Assembly (NCBI GenBank): GCA_003599865.1
Contig: QZKS01000041.1
Coordinates: 1-56,376, forward strand
DNA from: Desulfobacteraceae bacterium
GTDB taxonomy: Bacteria; Desulfobacterota; Desulfobacteria; Desulfobacterales; SURF-7
Direction: 5' to 3'
DNA length: 56,376 nucleotides
In this document: one piece after another, positions 1 through 43,665 of the stretch
How positions within the stretch are numbered: position 1 is the first letter of the stretch
Layout: every line of letters begins with the position of its first letter
Translations under genes and position numbers: made by a program
Notes under the pieces: model-generated
Told to the model about the DNA's origin: nothing
What the model saw: the letters and a program-made list of their open reading frames with translations, nothing else
Databases searched by the model: none

Positions 1-866
1 TCCCAAACCGACAAAGACCGATACTTTTCAGAAAGACTTTTTTTGATATCGTTTTGCATTTTCAGAAAGACTTTCTTTAAATCCGAAAATGATCGAATCC
101 GCTCTATCCGTTTAAAAAATGCCGCTTTTGATTTAACCCGCCTTAAATCCGCGTCTGTATTGATTTTCCAACTTGATGAAGCATCTAACCATTTGCCCAG
201 CTTGATATCATCAATTTTAACCTGTTCGAAATAACGAGCGTATAAGCTTTCATATGCCGTTTCCAGATCGTAATCAATAAAATCAGAAATTGATTGCAGC
301 CCTAACTTTTTTTTGATCTCGCCAGCACCTAATATGCGATGTTCAGAATGATCGCAAAGCTGTCCGTTGATCTTTGACAGGCGCGCGTACCGCGTGTGCT
401 TAAACTTCTTTCCGTAAAAATATGCTGTCGTCCCGCCGATAAGCGTTTTATCTTGTATCCGTCTTGCTTTTGTATGCTGGCCGACTTCATAAAGCTTTGA
501 TCCCGATGACCATTTTTTGTTCAACAGCGCATAATCTTTTTTTATCGAAGATTCGATTGACGAACACGCCCGATATAGTTCGCCCGTTTTGACTGGTGAA
601 AAAATCTCCTTTGCCAGCTCGACGTAAGAAATAAAATACGGCCTTAGATAGCCCTCATAGCGCAACAATGCTTCAAAGAATTTTTTGTCAGCGCCGCATA
701 TCTCAAGCCGATATGTGAACCCGCCATTCAGTTTAGCTTTTTGCGATGCCTCTGAAAGCTTGAAAGAGATGCAATGATTTTTTAATTCCGATTGAGTTGA
801 TTCTGATAAGTAGAAATGACTTTTTGAATTGATCCTGATTTTGTCCCAGTAGAAAAGCTTTTCCAT
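1..866 (-). CDS. Possible replication initiator-like protein, 3' end outside the window
   Basis: An open frame runs leftward from 866 to the window edge (288 codons, no stop), so it is partial. The protein starts MEKLFYWDKIRI. It has a hydrophobic patch YFISYVELAKEI near residue 80, then TAYFYGKKFKHTRYARL near 150 and CDHSEHRILGAGEIKKKLG near 175. This order, a strand with a conserved acidic position, an YG-K-x-RYxRL strand and an H-x-E-x-R-x-x-G strand followed by KKLG, reminds me of replication initiators of filamentous phages and small plasmids. No HUH motif or catalytic tyrosine can be picked out in the visible part, so this is tentative. ATG codons occur at 869 and 866. GGAGG at 873-877 lies 3 nt from the first and 6 nt from the second, so 866 is preferred. 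The folded element at 890-953 lies in its leader. Confidence 0.4.
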   Translation of the reverse strand, partial: MEKLFYWDKIRINSKSHFYLSESTQSELKNHCISFKLSEASQKAKLNGGFTYRLEICGADKKFFEALLRYEGYLRPYFISYVELAKEIFSPVKTGELYRACSSIESSIKKDYALLNKKWSSGSKLYEVGQHTKARRIQDKTLIGGTTAYFYGKKFKHTRYARLSKINGQLCDHSEHRILGAGEIKKKLGLQSISDFIDYDLETAYESLYARYFEQVKIDDIKLGKWLDASSSWKINTDADLRRVKSKAAFFKRIERIRSFSDLKKVFLKMQNDIKKSLSEKYRSLSVW

Positions 867-889
867 CATTCGCCTCCGTATTGGCGGTT

Positions 890-953
890 ATGCCGGGGTT
901 AGAGGGATGATACGGCATCCCTCTATTTACCTGTTGCAACAGGCCCCCGGCAT
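890..953. promoter_or_regulatory. 64-nt three-way junction (nested inverted repeats) before the initiator-like gene
   Basis: The outer arms ATGCCGGGG (890-898) and CCCCGGCAT (945-953) are perfect complements. Inside lie a 9-bp hairpin, AGAGGGATG (901-909) with CATCCCTCT (916-924) and a 6-nt loop, and the palindrome CCTGTTGCAACAGG (930-943). The whole can fold as a three-way junction in single-stranded DNA or in the leader RNA. It ends about 20 nt before the start codon at 866. A replication origin (double- or single-strand) or a translation-control structure would both fit. Confidence 0.55.
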
Positions 954-1014
954 GATCTTTATGTGATTATAGCATATTTTTTTCCATTTTCTGATTCCGT
1001 CGAAAAAAGGTTGC

Positions 1015-1051
1015 TTGCAGGCCAATGATTTTTACATCAAATGGCCTGCAA
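1015..1051 (-). terminator. Intrinsic terminator of the small-gene operon
   Basis: TTGCAGGCCA (1015-1024) and TGGCCTGCAA (1042-1051) form a perfect 10-bp stem with a 17-nt loop. Read leftward, the stem is followed within six bases by a run of T (TTTTTT), as expected for a Rho-independent terminator. It lies just after the 253-residue gene ending at 1128 and separates that operon from the initiator-like gene. Confidence 0.6.
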
Positions 1052-1127
1052 ACTGGGCTTGGCGCATGCCCCCAAGGATAGGCAGCACCATTGCCAAAAG
1101 ACGCCCGTTGCGTCTATCAGCCAAAAG

Positions 1128-1889
1128 TTAAGCAGCTTCGCCAACCGCTTTCCGCCAAAAGTCCTGTTGACGAATCTTGTCAGTTGTCGGAAGCCAGCCG
1201 TAATTCCGAAGCGTTTCGAGCGACCGAAAAACGAGCAGCCGCATCTGTTCGAGCCTTTCGTTTAGAATCTCAATTTCCAAAGTCTCGAAAGGATATTGTT
1301 TGTTCAATCGGATTGATCGCCCTTTTTCGATTTGCTCGGGTGTCAACAAGTCCAGATATTTGGGTGCGCTCTCAAGCGCCTCGCAAAGCTGCAAATCGGA
1401 CAAATCCGCACATGCCATCTGATACAACATATTGATTTCGGTTGCCGATTTGCCGTAAAGCGCCAGCCGAATTTCTGCGTTTTGTAACTCATCAACCACC
1501 TTATCTTTGCCCGCATAGCGTTTGAGAACCCGCGAAAGCTCAAGTTGTCGCAGGCGAGTGTTGAACCCTGATTGCAGATTGCTTTGACGAGCCAAAATCT
1601 GTGTGTATGCTACCTTGAGAAGCTGACCTGCCGCTTCCACGCGCTTTTTCGAGTCGCCATATTCCTGCCCGATCAGCTTTAATTTTTCGATGGTGGCGGC
1701 CAACAAGTCCGCAAAAAACTGACCGTCCATTGCATGCAGGGAGACCTGCATTTTTATAAGTTCATCCAGCTCGATTTTTTCCTGCTCGGACAATATGACT
1801 TCGCCGTTTAAAACCCGTTTAATCACGCTCACCGTGTAAAATTCGAAAGCGTTAACCGCTGCCGAAAGTTCGATATTGTTTCCACTCAT
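1128..1889 (-). CDS. Uncharacterised helical protein of a mobile element (253 aa)
   Basis: I do not recognise this gene. The protein is soluble, almost entirely helical by composition, rich in Leu, Glu, Lys and Arg, with no signal peptide, membrane segment or cysteine pair. A central part (about residues 80-130) is basic and Gln-rich. The start at 1889 is well supported by AGGAGG 8-9 nt upstream, which lies in the last codons of the preceding 79-residue gene; the intergenic gap is 2 nt, so the two are translationally linked. It is the last gene of the small operon and is followed by a terminator-like hairpin. Structural or packaging-related phage proteins have similar looks, but nothing in the sequence proves this. 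Confidence 0.6.
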   Translation of the reverse strand: MSGNNIELSAAVNAFEFYTVSVIKRVLNGEVILSEQEKIELDELIKMQVSLHAMDGQFFADLLAATIEKLKLIGQEYGDSKKRVEAAGQLLKVAYTQILARQSNLQSGFNTRLRQLELSRVLKRYAGKDKVVDELQNAEIRLALYGKSATEINMLYQMACADLSDLQLCEALESAPKYLDLLTPEQIEKGRSIRLNKQYPFETLEIEILNERLEQMRLLVFRSLETLRNYGWLPTTDKIRQQDFWRKAVGEAA

Positions 1890-1891
1890 AA

Positions 1892-2131
1892 TTATTTACC
1901 TCCTGATAAAATTTGTTGCCGTTGTAACTCAATAAAGTCCTGTTTATCTTTAAGCCCGAAGCGCTTTAAAATCTGTTCTATCGCTTGCTCGCTCGGTATG
2001 CCGCCGATAGACATTTCGATTTGCAAAATGCCGTCCCAGAGTTTTTCAGGCAGGTTGTTGTCATACTGCTGGATACCAATTTGCACCTTCAATTTTGATT
2101 CGAGGTTTTCAATTCGATTTTTCAATGACAT
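1892..2131 (-). CDS. Small uncharacterised protein of a mobile element (79 aa)
   Basis: Begins MSLKNRIENLESKLK, a short coiled-coil-like heptad pattern, and continues with an acidic, helical body ending LQRQQILSGGK. No known domain is recognised. It overlaps the end of the 72-residue gene by 23 nt and is followed after 2 nt by the 253-residue gene, so it is in the middle of a tightly packed operon. Such packed short genes are usual in phages and satellites. Function unknown. Confidence 0.55.
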   Translation of the reverse strand: MSLKNRIENLESKLKVQIGIQQYDNNLPEKLWDGILQIEMSIGGIPSEQAIEQILKRFGLKDKQDFIELQRQQILSGGK

Positions 2132-2327
2132 TTTCCAACTCCCTCAATCTGCTTTCAAGGTCCGCGACTTCAATAGCCCGTAATAAAACCGCCGAGGCAT
2201 AAATGATTTTTGACCCCACGACGGGATCGATCTCGCCGCTTTTCAATTCGTGAACCAGTCCGGAAAGCATCCGCCTGACATCGCTTGCTGATTTTAAATA
2301 AAACCGCCTGATTGCCTTTTTATTCAT
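2109..2327 (-). CDS. Small phage-type protein with DVRRML and DLESRLRELE motifs (72 aa)
   Basis: The protein has a basic N-terminus (MNKKAIRRFYL), an SASDVRRMLSGLVHELKSGEIDP segment and a C-terminal DLESRLRELENVIEK helix. I have the impression of many short phage genes with this same pattern (a 'D-V-R-x-L ... G-x-I-D-P ... L-E-x-R-L' protein near packaging genes), but cannot name a family. A purine-rich stretch (GGGGGAT) precedes the ATG at 2327. It overlaps the next gene by 23 nt. Function unknown. Confidence 0.55.
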   Translation of the reverse strand: MNKKAIRRFYLKSASDVRRMLSGLVHELKSGEIDPVVGSKIIYASAVLLRAIEVADLESRLRELENVIEKSN

Positions 2328-2349
2328 TGATCCCCCTATACACTTCAGC

Positions 2350-2376
2350 GTAAGTTACTGAAATTAAATAACTTAC
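2350..2376. repeat. Inverted repeat between the RHH gene and the 72-residue gene
   Basis: GTAAGTTA (2350-2357) and TAACTTAC (2369-2376) are perfect complements separated by 11 nt of AT-rich sequence. They lie just downstream of the ribbon-helix-helix gene and 20 nt upstream of the next start codon. An operator for the neighbouring RHH protein is a reasonable reading; a weak terminator is the alternative. Confidence 0.4.
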
Positions 2377-2385
2377 CTGAATATT

Positions 2386-2553
2386 TCATGTAGTTTTCCG
2401 CCGTTTTCGAGCGGTCTTTTGTGTGTTTTTCTCGTCAAACAACTTTTCCAGTGCCTCAGCAACGACATTGGCCATCGTTTTTTTCTGCTCGATTGCTGTA
2501 ATCTTTAGTTTACCGTGCAGATCATCGTTTAGCTGCATTGAGAATCCGACCAT
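2386..2553 (-). CDS. Small ribbon-helix-helix (Arc/CopG/ParD-like) protein, 55 aa
   Basis: The protein reads MVGFSMQLNDDLHGKLKIT and continues with AIEQKKTMANVVAEALEKLF and a basic tail (ARKRRKTT). A short strand (FSMQL), a first helix (DDLHGKLKITAIEQ), a turn (KKT) and a second helix (MANVVAEALEKLF) are the layout of a ribbon-helix-helix DNA-binding dimer. The start is firm: AAGGAGG lies 6 nt before the ATG at 2553. It is the first gene of the leftward operon and is preceded by inverted repeats (2605-2619 and 2723-2736), so it probably autoregulates, as small transcription factors or copy-number regulators of plasmids and phages do. An antitoxin is possible, but no toxin partner is visible. 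Confidence 0.65.
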   Translation of the reverse strand: MVGFSMQLNDDLHGKLKITAIEQKKTMANVVAEALEKLFDEKNTQKTARKRRKTT

Positions 2554-2604
2554 TTTTAACCTCCTTGTTACGATAACATCTTTAAATTTTATAATTAAAT
2601 TATA

Positions 2605-2736
2605 GTTTACCTAATTAACAAAAAAAAGCGTTTTCTTCGATTATCGCAAAAAAAGCGCTTTTTACTTTGATTTTTAAAATCAAATATGTTTCTATTTGTT
2701 TTTTCTCAATAAATTCATGTTATTAATTAGGTTAAC
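2605..2736. repeat. Widely spaced inverted repeat upstream of the RHH gene
   Basis: GTTTACCTAATTAAC (2605-2619) and TTAATTAGGTTAAC (2723-2736) are inverted copies matching at 13 of 14 positions, about 100 nt apart. The inner copy lies about 50 nt upstream of the RHH start codon, where a promoter would be. Between them is the palindrome AAAAAGCGCTTTTT (about 2649-2662). These could be repressor operators or recombinase arm sites at the element end. Confidence 0.4.
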
Positions 2737-2750
2737 GTACTGCTGAGTAC

Positions 2751-3123
2751 TTTTGCAAGCATTTGATTTTTTTCCATTTTTTCAGTTTGATCGGGTAGGA
2801 GTCGAATTGCCGCTTCCGGTTTCGCAGCAATATTCCACGTTTTTTTCAGGAACAAGATAGTTTGAATGTTTCATAATAGTCAATAGATTATTGAACGAGC
2901 TGTCGATGAAATCGTCATTTCTCCGTTTTTATTTTTGAATGAACAGAACCGGTCGCGGATCGTCAGGAGTCCGATAAAGAATGGAAACTCCCTTTTTTCT
3001 TTAAGATTCTTGGAAACTGTGATAGATGAACCCAGTCATCTGATTTTATGTTCTCAGATTTGGTACTCATAACAATATGTCTGAATGATAACGGACTATT
3101 CATACTGGATGGTTGGAAATACG
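2751..3123. other. Gap of about 370 bases without a recognisable gene
   Basis: AT-rich sequence between the element and lpxC. No frame here looks coding on either strand; I see no tRNA-like fold, no CRISPR-type repeat and no convincing promoter. A short hairpin (GTACT at 2737-2741 with AGTAC at 2746-2750) lies at its left edge. The lpxC promoter should be here but cannot be pinned down by eye. Confidence 0.5.
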
Positions 3124-4029
3124 ATGTTTTATAATCAACGAACGCTGGCAAAACCGGTATCCTGCTCGGGAGTAGGGGTTCACTCTGGAAAAAAGGTAAA
3201 CCTTACGATCAAGCCGGCACCGGCAAACTATGGTATCAAGTTTATCCGGACGGATCTTCCGGCTTCTCCCGAGATTCCCGCTCTGTTTAATATGGTTGTT
3301 GACACAAGCCTTGCGACCGTCATCGGACAGGAGGGCGTAATCGTTTCGACCATTGAGCATTTAATGGCCTGCCTGGCAGGATTTTCAATCGACAATGCCA
3401 TGGTTGAACTGGATAATTATGAAATGCCGATTCTGGACGGCAGTTCCGCGGTTTATGCACAAATGATTAAAAAAGCAGGCATTCTGGAACTCTCTGATCC
3501 CCGATATTTTTTTATTGTGAAAAAGCCCATTGAACGAAAAGAAAATGATAAGTCGGTGATCGCCTATCCATCATCCATACCCAGGATAACCTGCACCATT
3601 GATTTTCCGCATCCCTTGATTCAGCAACAGACCTTTTCCATCAACTTGACGGAAGAGACATTTGAAAAGGAGATCAGCAGCGCCAGAACCTTTGGCTTCC
3701 TGAGTGAGATTGAGTATCTGAAACGTTACGGACTGGCCCGGGGGGCCACACTGGAAACCGGTGTCGCGGTAGATGAAGAAAAGATTTTAAACAAAGAAGG
3801 GCTGCGTTTTGCGGATGAGTTTGTGCGCCATAAAATACTGGATTGCATCGGAGACTTTTCTCTGCTTGGCATGCCGATTCTGGGGCATATTGTCACCAAC
3901 AAATCCGGGCATGCGTTTAATCATGCTTTCCTACGAACTTTCTTTGAACACAAAGACTCCTGGGATACCCGGCCATTAAAAGATTTCACAGGCGTTGAAG
4001 ACCCGTTTTCGAAATCACTTGCCATTTAA
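3124..4029 (+). CDS. lpxC: UDP-3-O-acyl-N-acetylglucosamine deacetylase
   Basis: LpxC removes the acetyl group from UDP-3-O-acyl-GlcNAc, the committed zinc-dependent step of lipid A synthesis in the cytoplasm, so the cell has an outer membrane with lipopolysaccharide. The sequence shows the QRTL start, GVGVHSG, STIEHLMA, LDGSS and RHKILDCIGD motifs. With the ATG at 3124 (MFYNQRTL) the first zinc histidine falls on residue 79, as in characterised LpxC enzymes, and the other ligands on H236 and D240. In-frame ATGs at 3085 and 3109 exist but have no ribosome-binding site and would add a non-conserved extension. Length 301 aa is normal. It heads a rightward run with the DUF4390-like gene and ntrYX, a common neighbourhood in Desulfobacterota. 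Confidence 0.95.
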   Translation: MFYNQRTLAKPVSCSGVGVHSGKKVNLTIKPAPANYGIKFIRTDLPASPEIPALFNMVVDTSLATVIGQEGVIVSTIEHLMACLAGFSIDNAMVELDNYEMPILDGSSAVYAQMIKKAGILELSDPRYFFIVKKPIERKENDKSVIAYPSSIPRITCTIDFPHPLIQQQTFSINLTEETFEKEISSARTFGFLSEIEYLKRYGLARGATLETGVAVDEEKILNKEGLRFADEFVRHKILDCIGDFSLLGMPILGHIVTNKSGHAFNHAFLRTFFEHKDSWDTRPLKDFTGVEDPFSKSLAI

Positions 4030-4150
4030 AAAACGATTCGTTATGAATCAGGCTTGTTGGAATTTCTCACTGGATTGGTAAAGAATTGAATTGATTTTGG
4101 GAATACAGGAACTTTTTTCCGTCAAAGACGGATTCAACGATAGAAAAGCG

Positions 4151-4723
4151 ATGGTTACAAAAAAATTGGTTCAAAAAATAATATGTTACCTTCTGGCCAG
4201 TGTTTTTATCCTGCAAGGAACGGGTATTGCCCAGGATGCGGCCCTGAATAACATCATCATCAATAATACGCGGGATAACTTGCTGCTGTACCTTGAGGTC
4301 GAAGGTGCATTCCGGGACAACATGAAACAGGCGATCATGAACGGAGTACCGGCCTCTTTTTCTTTCTATGTGATGCTGTTTCGTTATCGTGGTTTCTGGG
4401 TGGATGAAAAAATAACGGATATCGAAATTACCCATACCATGAAATATGATAGTCTAAAAAAGGAATATACTGTCCTCCGATCCTGGGAATCGGAATCCCA
4501 GGTGAGGACGAAATCCTTTGAGGAAGCACAAAAGCTGATGAGCGAGATTAAGGGTATGCATGTTGTATCACTTTCCAGGCTGACAAAAGGAACGCAATAT
4601 CAAATAAAAGCAAAGGCGGAACTCAGCAAGATCACTCTGCCTTTGTATCTTCACTATGTTTTATTTTTCATGTCGCTCTGGGATTTTGAAACCGACTGGT
4701 ACACAATTGATTTCACATATTAG
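4151..4723 (+). CDS. DUF4390-like exported protein
   Basis: About 190 residues. The N-terminus (MVTKKLVQKIICYLLASVFILQ, then GTGIAQDA) is a basic stretch and a hydrophobic core with an Ala-x-Ala-like end, so a signal peptide or anchor is likely. The rest is beta-rich with WVDEKITDIEITHTMKYDSL and a hydrophobic patch (PLYLHYVLFFMSLWDFETDW) at the C-terminus; this matches what I know of DUF4390 proteins, which sit beside ntrY in many Desulfobacterota. The function of the family is not known. An upstream TTG (4091) would put an unlikely 20-residue extension before the signal peptide, so 4151 was chosen, although no strong ribosome-binding site precedes either. Confidence 0.75.
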   Translation: MVTKKLVQKIICYLLASVFILQGTGIAQDAALNNIIINNTRDNLLLYLEVEGAFRDNMKQAIMNGVPASFSFYVMLFRYRGFWVDEKITDIEITHTMKYDSLKKEYTVLRSWESESQVRTKSFEEAQKLMSEIKGMHVVSLSRLTKGTQYQIKAKAELSKITLPLYLHYVLFFMSLWDFETDWYTIDFTY

Positions 4724-4776
4724 CAATCATGGAGAGAATACCATAATCGACAATTAACAGCAGGCCCCTGAGAACG

Positions 4777-7023
4777 ATGTTGACCCGTAAAAACCGCCGA
4801 AAATCCATTCCATCGATCTCGGAAGATGAGATTAAAAGACGAAAACGGGAATATCTTATCATTATCGGGATCATCATTTTTTTCCCGATCCTCACCTTTT
4901 TTGAAACCCGTATTATCCATTTTGGCGGAGATTTTCCCATTTCCAACACGGTGTTGATGTTCAGTCTGATCAACATCAATCTGTTGCTGCTGATCCTGCT
5001 GATTTTCCTTGTTTTTCGAAATCTCGTAAAACTGCTGTATGACCGTAGACGCAGAATTACAGGGGCAAAACTCAGGACAAGGCTGGTCGTGGCATTTATT
5101 TCTCTTTCGCTCCTCCCGACAACCGTTCTGTTTTTTTTCGCGATCAACTTCATCACCACCAGTATTGAATTCTGGTTTAATGTTCCGGTGGAACAGGCGC
5201 TTGAAAATTCTTTGGCGGTCGGCAGGCACCTGTATGATCATGTGGAGGATAACAATCTGTTCTTTCTGGAGAGAGCCGCATACCAGATCAGCACCAAAAA
5301 ATATTTAAGTCCGGACAAACAAAAAGCATTTACCCGATATATTCAGGTTGTTCAGCGGGAATTCAATCATCATGCCGTGGAGGTCTATGACGCCAACGCC
5401 AAGAGACTGACCTATTCGCTGTCTCCGCTGCTGGAAAAAAAAGGATTGCCGGTTCTGACACCGGAAAAAATTCTAAAAGAAGCACCGAATGGCAATATTA
5501 AAAGCATTTCGGAGGAAATTCCCCTCGGGGAGCTGATTCGAACAGTCGGGTCCGTGCCGTATGGGGCATCAAGGCTGGATACGGTCGGTTATGTTGTCAT
5601 CAGCAAGGTCATCTCAGGAGACCTGTCCCGCAATATGGAGTCCATTTCAAGAGGCTTTGAAGAGTACCAGCAGATCAAGATGCTGAAGCGGCCGATTCAG
5701 ACAACCTACTATATCAGTCTGTCCATTGTCGCCCTTCTGGTATTGTTCTGTGCGATATGGTTCGGTTTCTATCTGGCCAAATCCATTACCATTCCCATCA
5801 TGAGGCTGGCGGAAGGAACACGCCGGGTTGCCGAAGGGGATTTGAGCTTTAATATTGAACAGATTGCGGATGATGAGATCGGAAGTCTCGTTAATTCGTT
5901 TAATAAAATGACAAGAGACCTCCGGGTCGGACGGGAACAGCTGGAACTCTCAGCCAGAATGCTGCATGAACAGAATGACGAGATCGAAGAACAGCGGCAG
6001 TATATGGAAATCGTTCTGAAGAATGTATCCGCCGGTGTCATCTCTTTGAACAAGGGCGGATTTATCACCACGATCAATAAGTCAGCGGAAAAGATGCTCA
6101 GCATCCGGCCGGATGAGATTGTGGGCAAGAGTTACAAAACGCTGTTAAAAGGTGAATTGCTTGAACTTGCCAATGACACGATGGAAAAAATTACAAATTC
6201 CCGGGACAACAGTATTGTTCTTCCCTATAAACTGGCCATTGACGGTCGGCCGCGCAGTTTGCTGGTACATCTGAATGCGTTAAAGGACGATCTGGATCGT
6301 CATCTGGGAATCGTTCTGGTGATCGATGACCTGACGGAACTGGAAAAGGCGCAGAGAATGGCGGCATGGCGGGAGGTCGCCCGCAGGATTGCCCATGAGG
6401 TGAAGAACCCTTTAACGCCCATATCGCTTTCCGCTCAGCGGTTAAAAAGAAAATATTCCGAACGGGTGGGAGATCCCATTTTTGATGAGTGTACCCGAAC
6501 CATTATTGATCATGTGGATCTGATCCGCAATCTGGTGAATGAGTTTTCAACCTTTGCCCGGTTTCCCGGAGCCAATCCAAAACCCTGCGAGCTTCCTCCG
6601 ATTATCGAGGAAACCGTTGCCCTGTATCGGGAGGGCCATACCAACATCCATTTTGATATTCATATTTCCGATAATATCCCCAAGCTGAAACTGGATCGCC
6701 AGCAGATCAAGCAGGCCATGATCAATCTTGTGGACAATGCCATTGCCTCCATTACACACATTGAGTCCGAGGGCGATATCAACATATCGGTGATGCATGA
6801 TCCCATTTTAAATCTTGTCAGACTGGAAGTGAGTGATACCGGTGCCGGAATTTCCGATCAGGAAAAAACCAGATTGTTTGAACCCTATTTTTCAACCAAA
6901 AAATCAGGTATGGGTCTAGGCCTTACCATTGTAAGCACCATCATCACCGATCATAATGGTTTGATCAGCGTTCAGGACAATCATCCCCGGGGAGCAAAGT
7001 TTGTGATTGAGATTCCGGTATAA
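4777..7023 (+). CDS. ntrY: NtrY-type membrane sensor histidine kinase
   Basis: 748 residues. In order: three N-terminal membrane segments (about residues 25-45, 55-80 and 100-125), an extracytoplasmic sensing region to about 305, a further membrane segment (about 310-330), a HAMP linker (KSITIPIMRLAEGTRRVAEG), a coiled coil, a PAS domain (about 410-520), a HisKA box with RRIAHEVKNPLTPISLSAQR (phospho-accepting His540) and an ATPase domain with NLVDNAIASI, SDTGAGIS and GMGLGL. This architecture is that of NtrY, which senses nitrogen or redox state in other proteobacteria; the signal here is unknown. It is followed after 75 nt by its likely partner regulator. The family resemblance is clear, the name is by homology only. 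Confidence 0.85.
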   Translation: MLTRKNRRKSIPSISEDEIKRRKREYLIIIGIIIFFPILTFFETRIIHFGGDFPISNTVLMFSLININLLLLILLIFLVFRNLVKLLYDRRRRITGAKLRTRLVVAFISLSLLPTTVLFFFAINFITTSIEFWFNVPVEQALENSLAVGRHLYDHVEDNNLFFLERAAYQISTKKYLSPDKQKAFTRYIQVVQREFNHHAVEVYDANAKRLTYSLSPLLEKKGLPVLTPEKILKEAPNGNIKSISEEIPLGELIRTVGSVPYGASRLDTVGYVVISKVISGDLSRNMESISRGFEEYQQIKMLKRPIQTTYYISLSIVALLVLFCAIWFGFYLAKSITIPIMRLAEGTRRVAEGDLSFNIEQIADDEIGSLVNSFNKMTRDLRVGREQLELSARMLHEQNDEIEEQRQYMEIVLKNVSAGVISLNKGGFITTINKSAEKMLSIRPDEIVGKSYKTLLKGELLELANDTMEKITNSRDNSIVLPYKLAIDGRPRSLLVHLNALKDDLDRHLGIVLVIDDLTELEKAQRMAAWREVARRIAHEVKNPLTPISLSAQRLKRKYSERVGDPIFDECTRTIIDHVDLIRNLVNEFSTFARFPGANPKPCELPPIIEETVALYREGHTNIHFDIHISDNIPKLKLDRQQIKQAMINLVDNAIASITHIESEGDINISVMHDPILNLVRLEVSDTGAGISDQEKTRLFEPYFSTKKSGMGLGLTIVSTIITDHNGLISVQDNHPRGAKFVIEIPV

Positions 7024-7098
7024 AGACGGATCGGTGCAGCTTTTCATTCACTTTATTGGGATGGGAATGACGATAATCGGTAAAGGAGTATAGAGAAC

Positions 7099-8457
7099 AT
7101 GTTTCCAACAATCATGATCGTTGATGATGAGCCTTCGATCATAAAGTCGTTGAGCGGGCTGCTGATGGATGAAGATTTCGAAATCATCACCGCATCCAAC
7201 GGATATGAGGCATTGAAGATCATTGACGAAGAATCGCCGGACCTGGTCCTGCTGGATATATGGATGCCGGGAATCGATGGAATTGAAACATTAAAGGAGA
7301 TTAAAAAAAAGAATCCGCACATTCAGGTCGTCATGATTACCGGTCACGGCACGATTGAAACTGCGGTGAAAGCGACCAAGTTCGGGGCATTTGATTTTAT
7401 TGAAAAGCCGCTTTCCATCGACAAGGTGATTGTGGCCATTAACAATGCCTTGAGTTTCAGGCGGCTGGAAGAGGAGAACCGGTATCTCCGAAGAAAGACC
7501 CTTGAGAAAAACTCGATCGACGGCGGCAGCCCTCCCATTCAATTATTGAAACAGCAGGTTGCCGTAGCCGCGCCGACCGATGCATGGATCATGATCACCG
7601 GTGAAAATGGAACCGGTAAGGAGCTTGTTGCCCGAACCATCCATCATTTAAGCAGCCGATCCGAGCATCCGCTGGTTGATGTCAATTGTGCCGCCATACC
7701 GGATGAACTGATTGAAATCGAGTTGTTCGGACATGAAAAAAGTATATTTTCCGGCACCCATGCAAAATCAAGAGGCAAGTTTGAACTGGCCAATAAGGGA
7801 ACGATTTTTCTGGATGAAATCGGAGATATGAGTCTGAAAACCCAGGCAAAAATACTCCGTGTTCTGCAGGAACAGAAGTTTCAGCGCGTCGGGGGCAGCC
7901 GGGTTCTGGAAATCGATGTGCGGGTTATTGCGGCAAGCAATAAGGACATTGAAAAGGAGATCGAAAGGGGAAATTTCAGGGAAGATCTTTTTTTCCGTCT
8001 CAATGTAATTCCCATTGAGATTCCGGCATTGCGGGATCGTGTGGAAGATATACCCGTCCTGGTGGATACCTTTCTGGAAAAATGTGCCGTCCAGTATCAA
8101 AGCAATAAAAAATCCATTGACCGGAAAGCCCTGGAAATGCTGATGCGCTATAACTGGCCGGGCAATGTCCGGGAGCTGAAAAACCTGGTGGAAAGACTGG
8201 CGATCATGGTGGATGGCGAAAAGATTCAATCCCGTCATATTCCGTCGCCGTACCGCGATCCTAGCGAAAAGGAATTAGAGTCATTGGATAAACGATTGTT
8301 TTCCATGGACAGTCTGAAAAAAGCCAAGAAGGCGTTTGAAGAGGAATTTATCCGGAAAAAGCTGTCGGAAAACAACAATGATGTGAAAGAGACGGCAAAG
8401 AAGCTGGGGGTTGAAAAATCGCAGCTGGATAAAAAACTGGAAAATCTGAGATCATAA
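7099..8457 (+). CDS. ntrX: NtrX-type response regulator with AAA+ domain and altered GAFTGA loop
   Basis: 452 residues: receiver domain (acidic DD at 9-10, phospho-acceptor Asp53 in LLDIWMPGIDG, Thr and Lys of MITGHG and IEKPLS), a linker helix, an AAA+ domain (Walker A GENGTGKE near 170, Walker B GTIFLDEIGDM) and a C-terminal Fis-like helix-turn-helix (NNNDVKETAKKLGV). It should be phosphorylated by the NtrY-like kinase encoded just upstream. The loop that contacts sigma-54, normally GAFTGA, reads SIFSGT (residues 215-220), so sigma-54 activation is doubtful. AAGGAG precedes the ATG. rsmD starts 2 nt after its stop, so they are probably cotranscribed. Confidence 0.85.
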   Translation: MFPTIMIVDDEPSIIKSLSGLLMDEDFEIITASNGYEALKIIDEESPDLVLLDIWMPGIDGIETLKEIKKKNPHIQVVMITGHGTIETAVKATKFGAFDFIEKPLSIDKVIVAINNALSFRRLEEENRYLRRKTLEKNSIDGGSPPIQLLKQQVAVAAPTDAWIMITGENGTGKELVARTIHHLSSRSEHPLVDVNCAAIPDELIEIELFGHEKSIFSGTHAKSRGKFELANKGTIFLDEIGDMSLKTQAKILRVLQEQKFQRVGGSRVLEIDVRVIAASNKDIEKEIERGNFREDLFFRLNVIPIEIPALRDRVEDIPVLVDTFLEKCAVQYQSNKKSIDRKALEMLMRYNWPGNVRELKNLVERLAIMVDGEKIQSRHIPSPYRDPSEKELESLDKRLFSMDSLKKAKKAFEEEFIRKKLSENNNDVKETAKKLGVEKSQLDKKLENLRS

Positions 8458-8459
8458 AA

Positions 8460-9044
8460 ATGGGATTGCGGATTATCGGCGGCAAACAGCGGGGAAGGAA
8501 ACTGCTGGCGGTCAAAGGATTGGATACCCGGCCGACAGCAAACCGGATGCGGGAATCCCTGTTCAATATCCTGTCTACCCGTGTGATCGGATCGCATGTA
8601 CTGGATCTGTTTGCCGGTACCGGGGCACTGGGGATGGAGGCATTGAGCCGCGGGGCGGCATCCGCTGTTTTTATCGATAAGGCAAGAGAGGCCCTTTCCG
8701 TTATGGGAAGAAACATCGAAATCGGCGGATGGGGTGAACAGGCACGGATCATCAAGTGGAATATTGTAACCAATTTGAAATGCCTGAAAGGATGGATGCC
8801 GCCTTTTGACATGGTATTTATGGACCCGCCGTATCATACGGGCTGTGTTCAGAAAGCCCTCAAAAATCTGTGTGACAGCGATTGCCTGTCTGCTGCGGCG
8901 ACTATTGTTGTGGAACATTCAATAGAAGAACAGGTGCCGGAAACACTTTTTGGATGGGAAGTTGTGGATCAGCGAATATACAGTCGAACGGTTTTTTCAT
9001 TTTTACATCTTACGTCTACAGCAGAAAAGGAAACACTTGCCTGA
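8460..9044 (+). CDS. rsmD: 16S rRNA (guanine(966)-N2)-methyltransferase
   Basis: RsmD methylates G966 of 16S rRNA in the assembled small subunit. The 194-residue protein has the N-terminal RIIGGKQRGRKL segment, TRPTANRMRESLFNIL, the SAM-binding DLFAGTGALGMEALSRGA and the catalytic MDPPY, all typical for the family, and is of normal length. The start is 2 nt after the ntrX-like stop. Its TGA overlaps the coaD ATG by one base (TGATG at 9042-9046), so the two are translationally coupled, a pairing conserved in many bacteria. Confidence 0.93.
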   Translation: MGLRIIGGKQRGRKLLAVKGLDTRPTANRMRESLFNILSTRVIGSHVLDLFAGTGALGMEALSRGAASAVFIDKAREALSVMGRNIEIGGWGEQARIIKWNIVTNLKCLKGWMPPFDMVFMDPPYHTGCVQKALKNLCDSDCLSAAATIVVEHSIEEQVPETLFGWEVVDQRIYSRTVFSFLHLTSTAEKETLA

Positions 9045-9535
9045 TGAAGAAGAAAATTGCCATTTATCCGGGATCATTCGATCCTCCCACCAACGGTCAT
9101 TTGGATATTATCGAAAGAGGATTGGAATTGTTTGACAAGGTGATTGTTTCGATCATGTGCAATCCGGCCAAACAGTCTCTGTTCACGCTTGAGGAGAGAA
9201 TGGAACTGCTGAAAGAGATCACCAAGCCGTTTTCCAACATTGAAATTGATTCATCCGATGGCCTTCTTGTGGATTATGCGGTGAAACGGAATGCAACCGT
9301 CATCTTAAGGGGGATGCGTGCTGTCTCCGATTTTGAGTATGAATTTCAAATGGCCTTGATGAACAGGCGCTTGAATCGTGATATCCAGACCATTTTTCTG
9401 ATGACGGGGCTCCGGTGGATTTTTATCAGTTCATCGATCATCAAGGAAGCAGCCCGTTTCGGCGGAGATGTTTCCGATATGGTGCCGCCGGCGGTCTGCC
9501 AAAAACTGAAAGAGAAATTCTCATCCATGAAATAA
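9044..9535 (+). CDS. coaD: Phosphopantetheine adenylyltransferase
   Basis: CoaD joins ATP and 4'-phosphopantetheine to give dephospho-CoA, the fourth step of CoA synthesis. The 163-residue protein shows the nucleotidyl-transferase motifs YPGSFDPPTNGHLDII at the N-terminus, ILRGMRAVSDFEYE in the middle and ISSSIIKEAA near the end. The start is the ATG of TGATG that overlaps the rsmD stop, with AAGGAAA upstream inside rsmD; the length is normal for the family. Confidence 0.95.
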   Translation: MKKKIAIYPGSFDPPTNGHLDIIERGLELFDKVIVSIMCNPAKQSLFTLEERMELLKEITKPFSNIEIDSSDGLLVDYAVKRNATVILRGMRAVSDFEYEFQMALMNRRLNRDIQTIFLMTGLRWIFISSSIIKEAARFGGDVSDMVPPAVCQKLKEKFSSMK

Positions 9536-9545
9536 GGGAACCTCC

Positions 9546-10454
9546 ATGAATCTATGGCAGCTTCATATTTTCTGCAAGGTGATCGAGCTGAAGAGCTTTT
9601 CCAGGACAGGAGAAGTCATCCACCTCTCCCAGCCGACCATCAGTACGCATATCAAGGATCTGGAAAACTATTTTGAATGCCGTTTGATCGACCGGATGGG
9701 AAAACAGGCGCTCCCCACCAGAGCAGGAGAGCTTCTGTACGGATATGCCCGCAGGCTTTTACTGCTCAGCGAGGAAACCAAAAGCGCGGTCGCCGCTTTT
9801 AACGGGAAGCTGTCGGGTCGTCTGGTTATCGGCGGCAGCACCATCCCGGGGGCATATCTTCTGCCGAAAGTCATCGGCGAATTTACAAAACAATACAAGG
9901 ATATTACGGTTTCCATATCCATCAGCGACACCAAAAAAATTGTAGAGGATACCCAGAAAGGACTGATCGAGTTCGGTATTGTCGGTGGAAAATCATCAGC
10001 CAAGGGGATTGTTCAGGAAAAGCTGATGGAAGATGAAATGTGTCTGGTGGTTCCCTCGGATCATCGGTGGGCATCCAGAAAATCGGTTACGGTTTCAATG
10101 CTTCAGAAAGAACCGTTTCTGATTCGGGAGCAGGGGTCCGGCACACTTTCTTCCTTAAAGAACAGCCTTTCCCAGAACCATATCGATTTTCAATCCTTTC
10201 ATATCGTTGCCGAGATGGGAAGCACGACCGCCGTGATCCAGGGAATCAAGAACCGGATCGGGGTTTCGATTCTGTCACCGATTGCTATTCAGGAGGAACT
10301 CCAAACCGGGTCACTTTCAGCACTTTCCGTTGACGGGCTGGATTTAAAGAGAAGTTTTTATCTTACACGTCACGGGCAGCGGACGCCTTCTCCGATTGCC
10401 CATACCTTTATCCGGTTTCTTCACGAGACCGTTGAATCGTCGGGCAGTTCATAG
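9546..10454 (+). CDS. LysR-family transcriptional regulator
   Basis: 302 residues. The N-terminal winged helix-turn-helix reads LHIFCKVIELKSFSRTGEVI followed by HLSQPTISTHIKDLE; the rest is a LysR-type substrate-binding domain (LVIGGSTIPGAYLLP onward). The start MNLWQLHIF resembles LysR proteins associated with selenium metabolism in anaerobes, but no selenium gene is near, so the effector is unknown. It begins 10 nt after coaD and ends 39 nt before nhaA, in the same direction. In enterobacteria a LysR protein (NhaR) controls nhaA; whether this one does so is speculation, because regulators of this family usually act on a divergent gene. Confidence 0.85.
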   Translation: MNLWQLHIFCKVIELKSFSRTGEVIHLSQPTISTHIKDLENYFECRLIDRMGKQALPTRAGELLYGYARRLLLLSEETKSAVAAFNGKLSGRLVIGGSTIPGAYLLPKVIGEFTKQYKDITVSISISDTKKIVEDTQKGLIEFGIVGGKSSAKGIVQEKLMEDEMCLVVPSDHRWASRKSVTVSMLQKEPFLIREQGSGTLSSLKNSLSQNHIDFQSFHIVAEMGSTTAVIQGIKNRIGVSILSPIAIQEELQTGSLSALSVDGLDLKRSFYLTRHGQRTPSPIAHTFIRFLHETVESSGSS

Positions 10455-10493
10455 TATGGCAGCAGAATCCCATTACAGACAAACCGGAAGAGT

Positions 10494-11807
10494 ATGAAGG
10501 CAATCACCTCATTTCAGAAGTTTTTCGCCGGAATTGTCAGCGGCAGTTATCCCCTGATGTTGGGGGCCGCCCTTGCCATGATTTGGGCGAATCTGTATCC
10601 CGATTCCTATCATGGGGTATGGCATGCGGAAATTTCTTTTGCTGCCGGTCCTTTTCATGTTGGAAAAAGTGTCAGTCACTGGATCGATGAGGCATTGATG
10701 GCGCTGTTTTTCTTTTCCGTGGGGCTGGAGATCAAACGGGAAGTGCTGGTGGGGGAGCTGGCTTCGATCAAGAAGGCCCTGCTGCCGGTTATGGCAGCTG
10801 CCGGAGGGATGCTTTTCCCGGCTCTGATATACCTTGTTTTTACACGCAACACACCCCACGCTAATGGATGGGGTATTCCCATGGCAACGGATATTGCCTT
10901 CTCTCTTGCGGTATTGGCGGTTCTGGGAAAGAAAATCCCTATCGGTGTCAGGATTTTTCTGACCGCCCTTGCCATAGCGGATGACCTGGGAGCCGTTGTG
11001 GTCATCGGACTTTTTTATACAAAAACCGTCTCCGTCCAGGCCCTTCTTGTCGCCCTCCTGTTGCTGGTCCTCCTGTTTCTGGCAAACCTATTATGGATCC
11101 GGAATTCGATTGTCTATGCCGTTCTCGGTATGATGCTCTGGATGGCTGTTCTCAGTTCCGGTATCCATGCTGCGGTTGCCGGTGTATTGGTAGCACTGTT
11201 CATTCCTGCAAAGGGGAAATATGAAACGCAAACCTTTATTGAACGGATCGGATTATACCTGAATCGTTTTGAATGCAGCAACAGGAATGGAAATGCGTGC
11301 GGGTTTACGATCCTGTTGAATGCCGAACACCTGAATTCGGTTCGTATGATTGAAGAGGCGTGCCATGAAGTGGAAACTCCTTTGCAGCGCCTGGAATATG
11401 GTATTCATCCCTGGGTTTACTATCTGATCCTTCCCCTCTTTGCGCTGGCAAATGCCGGGGTTGACCTGACCGGCATTCAGATATCGGAATCTTTGTTTCA
11501 TCCGGTTTCGCTGGGCATTATCGCCGGGCTTGTTATAGGGAAACCATTAGGAATTCTGATATTTACGTTTATTTCAGTCAAGGTCCTGCGCACCGAACTG
11601 CATAAAGGCGTACACTGGCATCACCTGATCGGCGCGGGTATCCTGGCCGGAATCGGTTTTACCATGTCCCTGTTTATCTCGGGATTATCGTTTGCTTCAA
11701 CGGAAATCATGAATATCGCCAAGCTGGGCATTATTGCCGGCTCAACGTTTTCCGCTTTTGCCGGCCTTACCTTCCTGCTGTATGCAAACCGGATGGACAG
11801 CCGTTGA
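10494..11807 (+). CDS. nhaA: Na+/H+ antiporter NhaA
   Basis: 437 residues, about 11-12 membrane segments. It shows the NhaA signatures: SHWIDEALMALFFFSVGLEIKRE, the cation site MATDIAFSLAVLAVLG, and ALAIADDLGAVVVIGLFY with the paired aspartates, then HAAVAGVLVALFIP and GIGFTMSLFI near the end. NhaA exports Na+ in exchange for protons across the inner membrane for pH and salt homeostasis. A polar loop near residues 245-300 (NRFECSNRNGNAC onward) is longer than in enterobacterial NhaA. GGAAGAG precedes the ATG. Confidence 0.95.
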   Translation: MKAITSFQKFFAGIVSGSYPLMLGAALAMIWANLYPDSYHGVWHAEISFAAGPFHVGKSVSHWIDEALMALFFFSVGLEIKREVLVGELASIKKALLPVMAAAGGMLFPALIYLVFTRNTPHANGWGIPMATDIAFSLAVLAVLGKKIPIGVRIFLTALAIADDLGAVVVIGLFYTKTVSVQALLVALLLLVLLFLANLLWIRNSIVYAVLGMMLWMAVLSSGIHAAVAGVLVALFIPAKGKYETQTFIERIGLYLNRFECSNRNGNACGFTILLNAEHLNSVRMIEEACHEVETPLQRLEYGIHPWVYYLILPLFALANAGVDLTGIQISESLFHPVSLGIIAGLVIGKPLGILIFTFISVKVLRTELHKGVHWHHLIGAGILAGIGFTMSLFISGLSFASTEIMNIAKLGIIAGSTFSAFAGLTFLLYANRMDSR

Positions 11808-41610: not shown

Positions 41611-43665
41611 ATGAGTGAACATAACAAAGTATCAATGACCACCATGAATTACAGCAAGGACAGGGCACCTGCGGAAAACCCTCTGAAGATCATGGATTTA
41701 TCCTTGCGTGATGGCCACCAGTCCCTGTTCGCGACCAGGGGGCGAACCGAAGACATGATTCCGGTTGCCGAAATGATGGATGAGGTTGGTTTCTGGGCCA
41801 CGGAAACATGGGGTGGGGCTACGTTTGATACCATGCACCGGTTTTTGAATGAAGATCCCTGGGAACGAATCCGTACCCTGAAACGATATTTCAAGAAAAC
41901 CCCTTTTTCCATGCTGCTCCGGGCACAGAATCTGGTGGGTTACCGGAATTATGCCGATGACCTGGCCGAAGCGTTTGTGGAGAGAGCTGCTGCAAACGGC
42001 ATGGATATTTTCAGAACCTTCGACGCACTGAACGACTATCGAAATTTTGAAACGGTTGTGCCGATCATCAAGAAGTGCGGAAAACACTTTCAGGGCTGTA
42101 TCTGTTATACCATGACCGAACCGCGGCTTGGGGGTGATGTCTATAATATTGATTATTTTGTGAAGAAAGCTCAGGAGCTGGAAAAAATGGGTGCGGATAC
42201 CATCTGCATCAAGGACATGGCAGGCCTGATTGCACCCTATGACGCCTATAATGTCATCAAGGCCATCAAGGGAAAGGTATCGGTTCCGGTTCATCTTCAC
42301 AGCCATTTCACATCCGGTCTTGCGCCCATGTCGCATTTAAAGGCGATTGAAGCCGGGGTGGACATTGTCGATACCTGCATGTCTCCCTATGCCTATCGGA
42401 CATCCCATCCGGCTGTTGAGCCGCTGGTGATGGCCCTGATCGGCACAAACCGGGATACCGGATTTGACATCAAAAAACTGGCGGATATCAATGAAGTCCT
42501 GGAAAAGGAGATCATGCCCAAATACCGGCATCTCCTGGCCGATAACAAGATGTCCATCATTGATATCAATGTTCTGCTTCATCAGACACCGGGCGGCATG
42601 CTGTCCAATCTGGTGAACCAGCTCCGGGAAATGGATGCCCTGGATAAGATTGATGCGGTCTACAAGGAGCTTCCAAGAGTCCGGAAAGATCTTGGCCAGA
42701 TTCCGCTGGTCACGCCTACCAGCCAGATTGTCGGTATCCAGACCGTTAACAACGTGTTGTTTGACGATGATAAAGAGCGGTATAAAATGATTACCGCGCA
42801 GGTTAAGGATCTCTGCTACGGACTGTATGGAAAGACGGCGGTGCCGATCAATCCGGAAGTTCAGAAAAAAGCGCTCAAGGGATATTCCCGCGGGGAAGAA
42901 CCCATCACATGCAGGCCAGCGGAAGTTCTGGAGCCGGAATTGCCAAAAGCCAAGGAAGAAGTAAAAGGCCTGGCGGTTGATATCGATGATGTCATTTTAT
43001 ATGCCCTTTACCCGGTAACCGGTAAAAAGTTCCTGCAATGGAAATATGGAAAGGAAGAACCCCCGAAAGAGGTAATGGCCAAATCTCTTGCCGAAGCACT
43101 CCGGGAGCAGGAGCTGGTGCTCAAGGCGCGCAAGGGAGAACTTGTTGAAAAGAAAAAAGATGCTCCGGAAAAGGGAGAACATATTCGAGAGTTCAATGTG
43201 TTTGTGGATAGCGAATATTTCAGCGTCGGTGTGGAGGAGATCGGCGGATCACCGGTTATCCGTTATGTGCAGTCTGAGCAGATCGCACCACCGGCAGCGA
43301 AGGTCCCGGCCGTTCCTGTAGCGCATATGACCCCGGCCGCTCCTGCCGCTCCGGCGGCACCTGCTGCGCCGAAAGCGCCCGCTGCCCCTCCGGCGGCCGC
43401 TCCTGCCGTTGCACCGAAAGCAGCACCTGCACCTGCTGCCGGTGCTGCGGATGGAACGCCTCTGAAGGCACCCATGCCGGGAATGATTGTCAGTTATGAA
43501 AAACAGGTGGGTGATTCCGTGAATGAGGGTGAAACCGTTGTCATCCTGGAAGCCATGAAAATGGAAAATGCTCTGATTGCGCCGGTATCCGGTGTGGTCA
43601 AAGCGATCAATTACAAGAGCGGCGACAATGTCGCTAAAAATAATGTTTTGTGCGTGATCGGATAG
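41611..43665 (+). CDS. Carboxyltransferase 5S/pyruvate carboxylase subunit B-type, fused to biotin carrier
   Basis: 684 residues. An HMGL-like TIM barrel (RDGHQSLFATRGRTEDM, FGRTF-like MDIFRTFDALND, metal site HLHSHFTSGLAP, the CIKDMAGL lysine) is followed by a PYC/OADA domain (TPGGMLSNLVNQLREMD), a roughly 50-residue Ala/Pro hinge (about 560-615) and a biotinyl domain with EAMKMENA (biotin Lys650). This arrangement is that of oxaloacetate decarboxylase alpha and of the transcarboxylase 5S part, moving CO2 between pyruvate/oxaloacetate and biotin. The usual RDAHQS reads RDGHQS. The start has AAGGGGAG 10 nt upstream. No membrane Na+-pump beta subunit is in the window, which favours transcarboxylase over a sodium pump. 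Confidence 0.9.
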   Translation: MSEHNKVSMTTMNYSKDRAPAENPLKIMDLSLRDGHQSLFATRGRTEDMIPVAEMMDEVGFWATETWGGATFDTMHRFLNEDPWERIRTLKRYFKKTPFSMLLRAQNLVGYRNYADDLAEAFVERAAANGMDIFRTFDALNDYRNFETVVPIIKKCGKHFQGCICYTMTEPRLGGDVYNIDYFVKKAQELEKMGADTICIKDMAGLIAPYDAYNVIKAIKGKVSVPVHLHSHFTSGLAPMSHLKAIEAGVDIVDTCMSPYAYRTSHPAVEPLVMALIGTNRDTGFDIKKLADINEVLEKEIMPKYRHLLADNKMSIIDINVLLHQTPGGMLSNLVNQLREMDALDKIDAVYKELPRVRKDLGQIPLVTPTSQIVGIQTVNNVLFDDDKERYKMITAQVKDLCYGLYGKTAVPINPEVQKKALKGYSRGEEPITCRPAEVLEPELPKAKEEVKGLAVDIDDVILYALYPVTGKKFLQWKYGKEEPPKEVMAKSLAEALREQELVLKARKGELVEKKKDAPEKGEHIREFNVFVDSEYFSVGVEEIGGSPVIRYVQSEQIAPPAAKVPAVPVAHMTPAAPAAPAAPAAPKAPAAPPAAAPAVAPKAAPAPAAGAADGTPLKAPMPGMIVSYEKQVGDSVNEGETVVILEAMKMENALIAPVSGVVKAINYKSGDNVAKNNVLCVIG

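Follow-up and report, generated by a model that had tools for sequence, protein, structure and literature searches.

A forked three-stem fold ahead of a gene for a probable divergent Rep_trans-like initiator: a candidate rolling-circle origin in DNA that interrupts comM

We analyzed a stretch of 56,376 bases (the window), which is the whole of contig C31 in a genome of 5.0 Mb and 100 contigs. Near its left end lies a short remnant of a gene that we take, from its protein sequence, to be comM. Read leftwards from this junction on the minus strand, the DNA encodes a ribbon-helix-helix (RHH) protein, two small proteins and a 253-aa protein, followed by a structured gap and a candidate initiator gene that runs off the contig. 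The features are listed here in order of position.

3-869, minus strand: gene for a divergent Rep_trans-like initiator candidate, N-terminal part of 289 aa, 3′ end cut by the contig start (motifs, structural comparison)
890-953, no strand assigned: three-stem fold (three-way junction), candidate double-strand origin (complementarity, z, shuffles)
1015-1051, no strand assigned: second perfect hairpin, 10-bp arms 1015-1024/1042-1051, 17-nt loop (inverted-repeat search, exact check)
1128-1889, minus strand: 253-aa protein, function unknown (ORF list)
1892-2131, minus strand: 79-aa protein, unknown (ORF list, no useful match in Pfam or PHROGs)
2109-2327, minus strand: 72-aa protein (ORF list)
2386-2553, minus strand: 55-aa RHH protein with a strong Shine-Dalgarno sequence (Antitox_RHH, E 7.4e-5, below the Pfam cut-off)
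2605-2736, no strand assigned: 17-nt inverted repeats 2605-2621/2720-2736, 88% identical, at the inner edge of the element (inverted-repeat search)
2736-2762, minus strand: comM remnant, first nine codons (MLAKVLSST; exact check), right junction near 2735

In three genomes of the same genus, a divergent comM lies ahead of lpxC (its start was seen in G009 and G010 and its full length in G010 and G011). The window shares this homology upstream of lpxC only as far as the ninth codon of comM, near 2735. The remainder of comM gave one strong match in the genome, to codons 214-506 on contig C2 (L064, 12094-12972), where it is preceded by other genes; codons 10-213 were not found by genome search. 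Because homology stops after codon nine and codons 214-506 on C2 follow other genes, we conclude that foreign DNA interrupts comM. Comparison of the comM junction with the examined C2 and C21 stretches gave no attachment repeats beyond 12 bases; a T-rich stretch of 15 bases occurs at both 2766 and 976 of the window, but we did not count it as such a repeat. The part of the element that the window covers contains no integrase gene. A+T-rich inverted and direct repeats occupy 2605-2736, between the RHH gene and the comM junction; the 17-nt inverted repeats are candidate sites for a recombinase or regulator, and the RHH protein is perhaps the element's regulator.

The other small genes gave few leads. 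By eye, the 72-aa protein looks like the C-terminal portion of an ORF close to the initiator gene of one relative (L047, 5078-5638; DUF5681 at E 1e-4, below the cut-off). Among the 389 genomes searched, ten besides the window's own hold weak matches to the 253-aa protein, at 22-33% identity and E 8.4e-7 at best; at the six places that we inspected by reading, PilZ-like genes stood beside four and a terminase-like ORF beside one. With 11 of 389 genomes positive, the window's own included, and PilZ-like neighbourhoods in four of six places, we rejected this protein as a marker of the element. At L032 (4256-5038), a distant relative of it follows an apparent partial phage terminase gene.

Where the element is cut off at the left, a second contig (C21) ends in 238 bases (L004, 10686-10923) that are 98% identical (233/238) to window positions 238-1. 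This copy is a truncated later part of the initiator gene and breaks off at the window's own end base; no further copies of the gene were found. Since both contigs break at the same base, these data suggest that a shared repeat stopped the assembly of C21 and C31. The initiator gene also holds an internal direct repeat of 20 nt at 95% identity (window 25-44 and 59-78, starts 34 bases apart).

The fold at 890-953 had been described in preliminary form as perfect 9-bp outer arms enclosing a perfect 9-bp hairpin and a 14-bp palindrome. Exact complementarity checks bore out the outer arms (ATGCCGGGG at 890-898 and CCCCGGCAT at 945-953, perfect reverse complements of 9 bp) and the perfect palindrome (CCTGTTGCAACAGG, 930-943); the inner hairpin is indeed perfect, and its length is 10 bp rather than 9 (TAGAGGGATG, 900-909; CATCCCTCTA, 916-925; loop ATACGG). 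Bases 899, 926-929 and 944 are left unpaired. Folded as plus-strand DNA, the segment 885-958 reached −22.7 kcal/mol (z −6.42), and as minus-strand RNA −40.4 kcal/mol (z −6.64), with none of 200 dinucleotide shuffles as stable in either case. In a contig-wide scan of 14,076 folds with RNA energies (74-nt windows, both strands, step 8), the top three energies (−40.4, −40.4 and −39.6) all covered this fold, and the runner-up, at position 43329, came close at −39.2. These results confirm that the fold is real as a structure. A search of the genome at E 0.001 found one copy of the fold, and we rejected a repeat family as its explanation.

How unusual the fold appears depends on the measure. By a single-stem measure it is unexceptional, an equally good inverted repeat being present in 42 of 555 other 300-nt windows. 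We then scanned for nested structures in which perfectly paired outer arms (9 bp or longer) enclose two perfectly paired inner stems (5 bp or longer), criteria set after the fold had been seen; the 56,376 bases yielded one case, the fold itself with 25 pairs in total, and 40 dinucleotide-shuffled windows yielded two, both weaker at 19 pairs each. The earlier contention that such nested stems are unlikely by chance agrees with this count. An inert chance structure, or a relic in a decayed element, could be suspected from the contig break that cuts the element, from the missing comM codons 10-213 and from the second, shortened copy of the gene's later part with which contig C21 ends. We regard this as highly improbable given the scarcity of nested stems in the shuffled windows and the state of the initiator gene, whose reading frame is open with its candidate active-site residues intact.

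The gap that holds the fold (870-1127, 258 nt, before the next gene) is structured throughout (z −6.48 as RNA and −6.45 as DNA; none of 200 shuffles as stable in each case). Both the three-stem fold and the second hairpin thus lie within the 258 nt ahead of gene 3-869, and the hairpin is a candidate initiator-binding repeat or single-strand origin. The ATG of gene 3-869 lies 20 nt from the edge of the fold at 890, with a Shine-Dalgarno-like GGAGG between the two, and the fold therefore sits in the leader of that gene, as had been claimed. Because of this position, the fold may serve not as a DNA origin but as part of an RNA leader through which translation or transcription of the initiator gene is controlled (copy-number control). 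Its energy as minus-strand RNA would suit such a role, as would a small adjoining hairpin predicted over the ribosome-binding region, but the ribosome site itself lies outside the 890-953 fold, a scan of 700-3100 found no terminator-like site in the gap, and no Rfam family was matched at its gathering score (the best match, at E 0.49, fell far short of that score). On balance we consider an RNA leader unlikely.

We further investigated whether the product of gene 3-869 resembles known initiators. The published Rep_trans motifs are an N′ Asp, RxD, T/SxY/ExG, YxKxxE and RxE (PMC5714925, PMC4797284). The candidate counterparts in the window protein are D9, E84, T148, Y150, Y161, R163, H174 and E176. 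In the first alignment, D9, E84, T148, Y150, Y161, R163, E176 and G181 were invariant in all five members; a sixth, more distant member has the same residue order with a longer loop, and D9 and E176 are invariant across all six. At motif I the window protein reads YxE instead of RxD: Glu (E84) replaces Asp in all six members and none has the Arg two residues earlier, and the A-x-D that follows is kept as A/S-x-D/E in all six. Motif II is T-x-Y in 5/5 members of the first alignment, with Gly two residues on in 3/5. Motif III is Y161-x-R163 in all five, that is, YxR where Rep_trans has YxK, and its Glu position holds Lys in four and Asn in one. The position two residues before E176 is Arg in two of six members and His in four.

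An ordered pattern built from the published motifs, written after the alignment had been seen and with spacing chosen to include the window protein, matched all six family members; of the five Rep_trans proteins that served as controls, it matched three. When it was run on 197 ORF translations (200 aa or longer) from the loci examined, it gave 8 matches, all to family members or annotated Rep_trans proteins, and it occurred in 6 of 9,850 shuffled sequences. The first version of the pattern, with other spacing and an obligatory Gly, matched one member and none of the five controls. The His-hydrophobic-His metal motif of HUH endonucleases is absent in that no H-x-H occurs within the 289 known residues of the window protein.

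A structural comparison made without reference to the motifs pointed the same way. With one row per entry and 999 chains aligned, the model of the window protein gave 4cwe (Z 6.8, 161 residues), 4cwc (Z 6.6, 169 residues) and 4cij (Z 6.0, 179 residues) as rows 1, 2 and 4, all of them Rep_trans rolling-circle initiators, at Z values below 8 that by the tool's own warning may mean a common arrangement only and with unrelated rows scoring up to 6.2. The absence of other families from this list carries no weight. The model is of low confidence (mean pLDDT 53), and that of the L013 relative is poorer (41.5). Foldseek with the window model found no PDB match at E 0.001 and two viral matches, whose names are absent from the table.

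Sequence libraries did not place the protein. Pfam gave no PF02486 match to the window protein at E up to 1, to the relatives at L007, L014, L015 (E up to 5 for the last two), L037 and L047, or anywhere in the window's genome. Pfam and PHROGs returned chance-like weak matches only (best E 0.05) for the initiator candidate and the next three ORFs, and NCBIfam returned none; neither the window protein nor a five-row profile matched the PDB by sequence. The relatives were compared with Pfam in all five cases and with PHROGs and NCBIfam for L013, L014 and L015; their sole match under E 0.001 was that of L015 to phrog_5746, of unknown function (E 9e-4, 47 residues). A profile-profile alignment (hhalign) of five family members with five Rep_trans proteins, thin on both sides (Neff 2.7), gave a probability of 0.4% over 26 columns outside the motif region. 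Because both the Pfam model and the profile-profile alignment failed to connect the protein with PF02486, we keep it out of that family, as a candidate that probably works like the Rep_trans enzymes. That gene 3-869 encodes a Rep_trans-like endonuclease nevertheless seems likely to us.

Five relatives of the gene 3-869 product were retained, at 22-29% identity, as follows.

G105: locus L007/L013
G217: locus L047
G536: locus L014/L030
G551: locus L015/L031
G789: locus L037

The threshold was E 0.01 or better in the class, the phylum and the relatives' classes, and E 0.001 in the family. The class sample gave 4 of 389 genomes with the single protein as query (including the window's own and two later dropped) and 3 of 389 with the five-row profile (own included). 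Hits came from 4 of 395 genomes in the phylum sample (own included, one dropped), and from 2 of 46 and 1 of 22 in the classes of two relatives, counts that include the relatives themselves. In the family sample, 1 of 12 genomes was positive at E 0.001, the window's own. Three candidates were rejected as false: G362 (E 0.0075) and G264 (E 0.0098), whose frames hold four and five stops, and G520 (E 0.0012), which by reading lies in a flagellar-type neighbourhood. Five viral-contig scans and a first genome-contig scan found no relative, and a second genome-contig scan found one locus, apparently L007; scans of this kind depend on short exact-type patterns and have little power at such divergence.

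In plasmid and phage records (50,697 of the latter), neither the window protein nor those of L007 and L037 had a match. This bears on a further explanation, that the fold is a recombination or packaging site, either a folded single-stranded attachment site or the intergenic hairpin of a single-stranded DNA phage. In filamentous phages the gap ahead of the initiator gene is typically highly structured, and the gap described here has that character. However, three family members without a match in the phage records speak against this explanation, the ORFs of 3-2553 (four of them compared with Pfam and PHROGs) include none that we recognised as a coat or packaging gene, and the comM junction lies 1.8 kb off, near 2735. 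We consider such a site very improbable.

The surroundings of the relatives were more informative. A tyrosine integrase is encoded on the initiator's strand in three of the five (L030, L037 and L047); as for the remaining pair, the L031 contig is 3.9 kb long and its ends do not overlap, and the flanks in G105 were seen in part. At L030, a perfect second copy of the 3′ end of tRNA-SeC gives rise to 63-bp direct repeats 9,553 bp apart, and because these repeats enclose both integrase and initiator, L030 is a site-specific integrated element. Its 9.5 kb (1670-11285) include DNA methyltransferase-like and endonuclease-like genes, recognised by reading only. At L037 the integrase gene overlaps the end of tRNA-Cys, of which the stretch examined has no second copy of at least 13 bases. 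An AlpA or HTH_17 gene lies upstream of the initiator in L031 and L047.

Such a context is also that of MOBT relaxases, which share the Rep_trans domain, act on integrating elements and are described as carrying an N-terminal helix-turn-helix (HTH) ahead of the catalytic domain (PMC6499999). The window protein could accordingly be a MOBT-like relaxase of a mobilizable element, with the structured gap as origin of transfer. The N-terminal HTH so described is at odds with the window protein, in which the first candidate catalytic Asp is already residue 9, and no conjugation genes were noticed among the ORFs of L030, L037 and L047, most of which were read by eye without a library. We therefore hold a relaxase to be quite improbable. 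As for the neighbouring gene being a replication initiator, as the preliminary description supposed, the proposal gains from the residue order shared by all six members, from the Rep_trans rows of the structural comparison and from the relatives in integrated elements, whereas no family of known function was matched and the profile-profile alignment failed.

We also compared the DNA upstream of the relatives' genes. As a blind control, the 300 nt upstream of each gene were set against other windows of the same locus by the single-stem measure. At L047, arms of 17 nt lie upstream of the gene, and none of 186 control windows was as good; at L037, 15-nt arms enclose two inner stems, and 2 of 114 were as good. 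The regions upstream at L030 (29 of 116 controls as good) and L013 (48 of 120) were unremarkable by this measure, and at L031 (28 of 32; z 0.1) the fold is absent. The stretches folded for z values were picked after the repeat search. Here L013 showed a nested hairpin (z −3.4 as DNA, −3.8 as RNA), L047 reached −3.8 for the fold and −1.6 for the gap in its entirety, L037 −2.3 for the fold and −0.9 over 300 nt, and L030 −2.4 over 300 nt. At both L037 and L047 the fold of minimum energy is a fork, with two inner stems enclosed by long arms, and in this it resembles the fold of the window; at L047 the inner stems have two pairs each and are missing from the centroid.

Overall, three of five relatives have a forked or nested fold upstream of the gene, and two have none of note. 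The preliminary description had made its reading depend on the presence of the fold in relatives: three carry one, of other sequence and in two cases unusual by the blind control, and the other two show none of note. Neither the sequence of the fold nor, where it is present, its distance from the gene is conserved. At L037 and L047, about 170-285 nt separate the fold from the start codon, which again argues against an RNA leader. Taken together, the upstream folds are suggestive of recurrence, short of proof of a conserved site. TGTTGCA-A/G-CA is common to the window palindrome and an inner stem of L037, a likeness seen by eye and not counted as evidence. At L031, the strongest inverted repeat (1450-1481; 11-nt arms, 10-nt loop) is downstream of the initiator gene and not upstream.

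We propose that the 890-953 fold and the hairpin at 1015-1051 form the double-strand origin of an integrated element that replicates by rolling circle once excised, and whose initiator would be the product of gene 3-869, either a divergent Rep_trans protein of the pT181/RepSTK1 type or a look-alike. We put the chances of this combined reading at one in two, and those of the fold being an origin, taken alone, at about even. On this proposal, expression of the element would be under the control of the RHH protein, and a tyrosine integrase, presumably encoded past the contig break, would excise it. In the supercoiled circle the palindromic region may then extrude; the initiator would bind one of the repeats and use Tyr161 to nick a single-stranded loop, D9, E84 and E176 serving as metal ligands. 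The nicked 3′ end would prime leading-strand synthesis, and the forked fold could re-form at the end of the round for termination.

A broader and more tentative idea, which we think possible but rather doubtful, is that an undescribed lineage of tyrosine endonucleases, convergent with Rep_trans or very distant from it, is responsible for the rolling-circle replication of elements with integrases in relatives of the delta-proteobacteria, and that it knows its origin by a forked three-stem DNA shape and not by sequence. Literature titles on Rep_trans and other rolling-circle initiators and on integrase elements included none describing such a system among the matches listed. Since none of the six members matches a family of known function in the libraries tried, and none of three matches phage or plasmid records, a replication system of integrated elements may escape current annotation. 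If the proposal is true, Rep_trans-type initiation extends to elements with altered motif letters, the family offers a marker for such integrated elements, and the locus becomes a test case for an initiator that reads forked DNA shape rather than sequence.

Three known systems invite comparison. The MOBT relaxases (RelSt3 and relatives) resemble the window family in having a Rep_trans-type catalytic core on integrating elements, and they differ in that the window protein has no room for their N-terminal HTH and that conjugation machinery was not noticed. Rep-Arvir (PF25227/DUF7845; PMC13107129), a protein family of archaeal viruses and plasmids, likewise consists of distant Rep_trans-like endonucleases on integrating elements, and a hairpin origin and a nearby inverted repeat accompany the gene. 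It differs in its archaeal hosts, in the position of the hairpin downstream of the gene and in a fused MarR-like domain, the last two points being set against a window gene that is cut at its 3′ end; by sequence, the comparison with this family was the Pfam scan. The third system is that of the Rep_trans proteins themselves (RepD/RepC of pT181-family plasmids and RepSTK1). The window family departs from them with Glu for Asp and no Arg in motif I and with Arg for Lys in motif III, and it lies on chromosomal contigs with integrases rather than on plasmids, with no Pfam or significant profile match. The residue order is alike (acid, acid-x-A/S-x-acid, T-x-Y, Y-x-basic, H/R-x-E), and the window gene adjoins a hairpin and a palindrome that recall the bipartite bind and nick sites of the Rep_trans double-strand origin.
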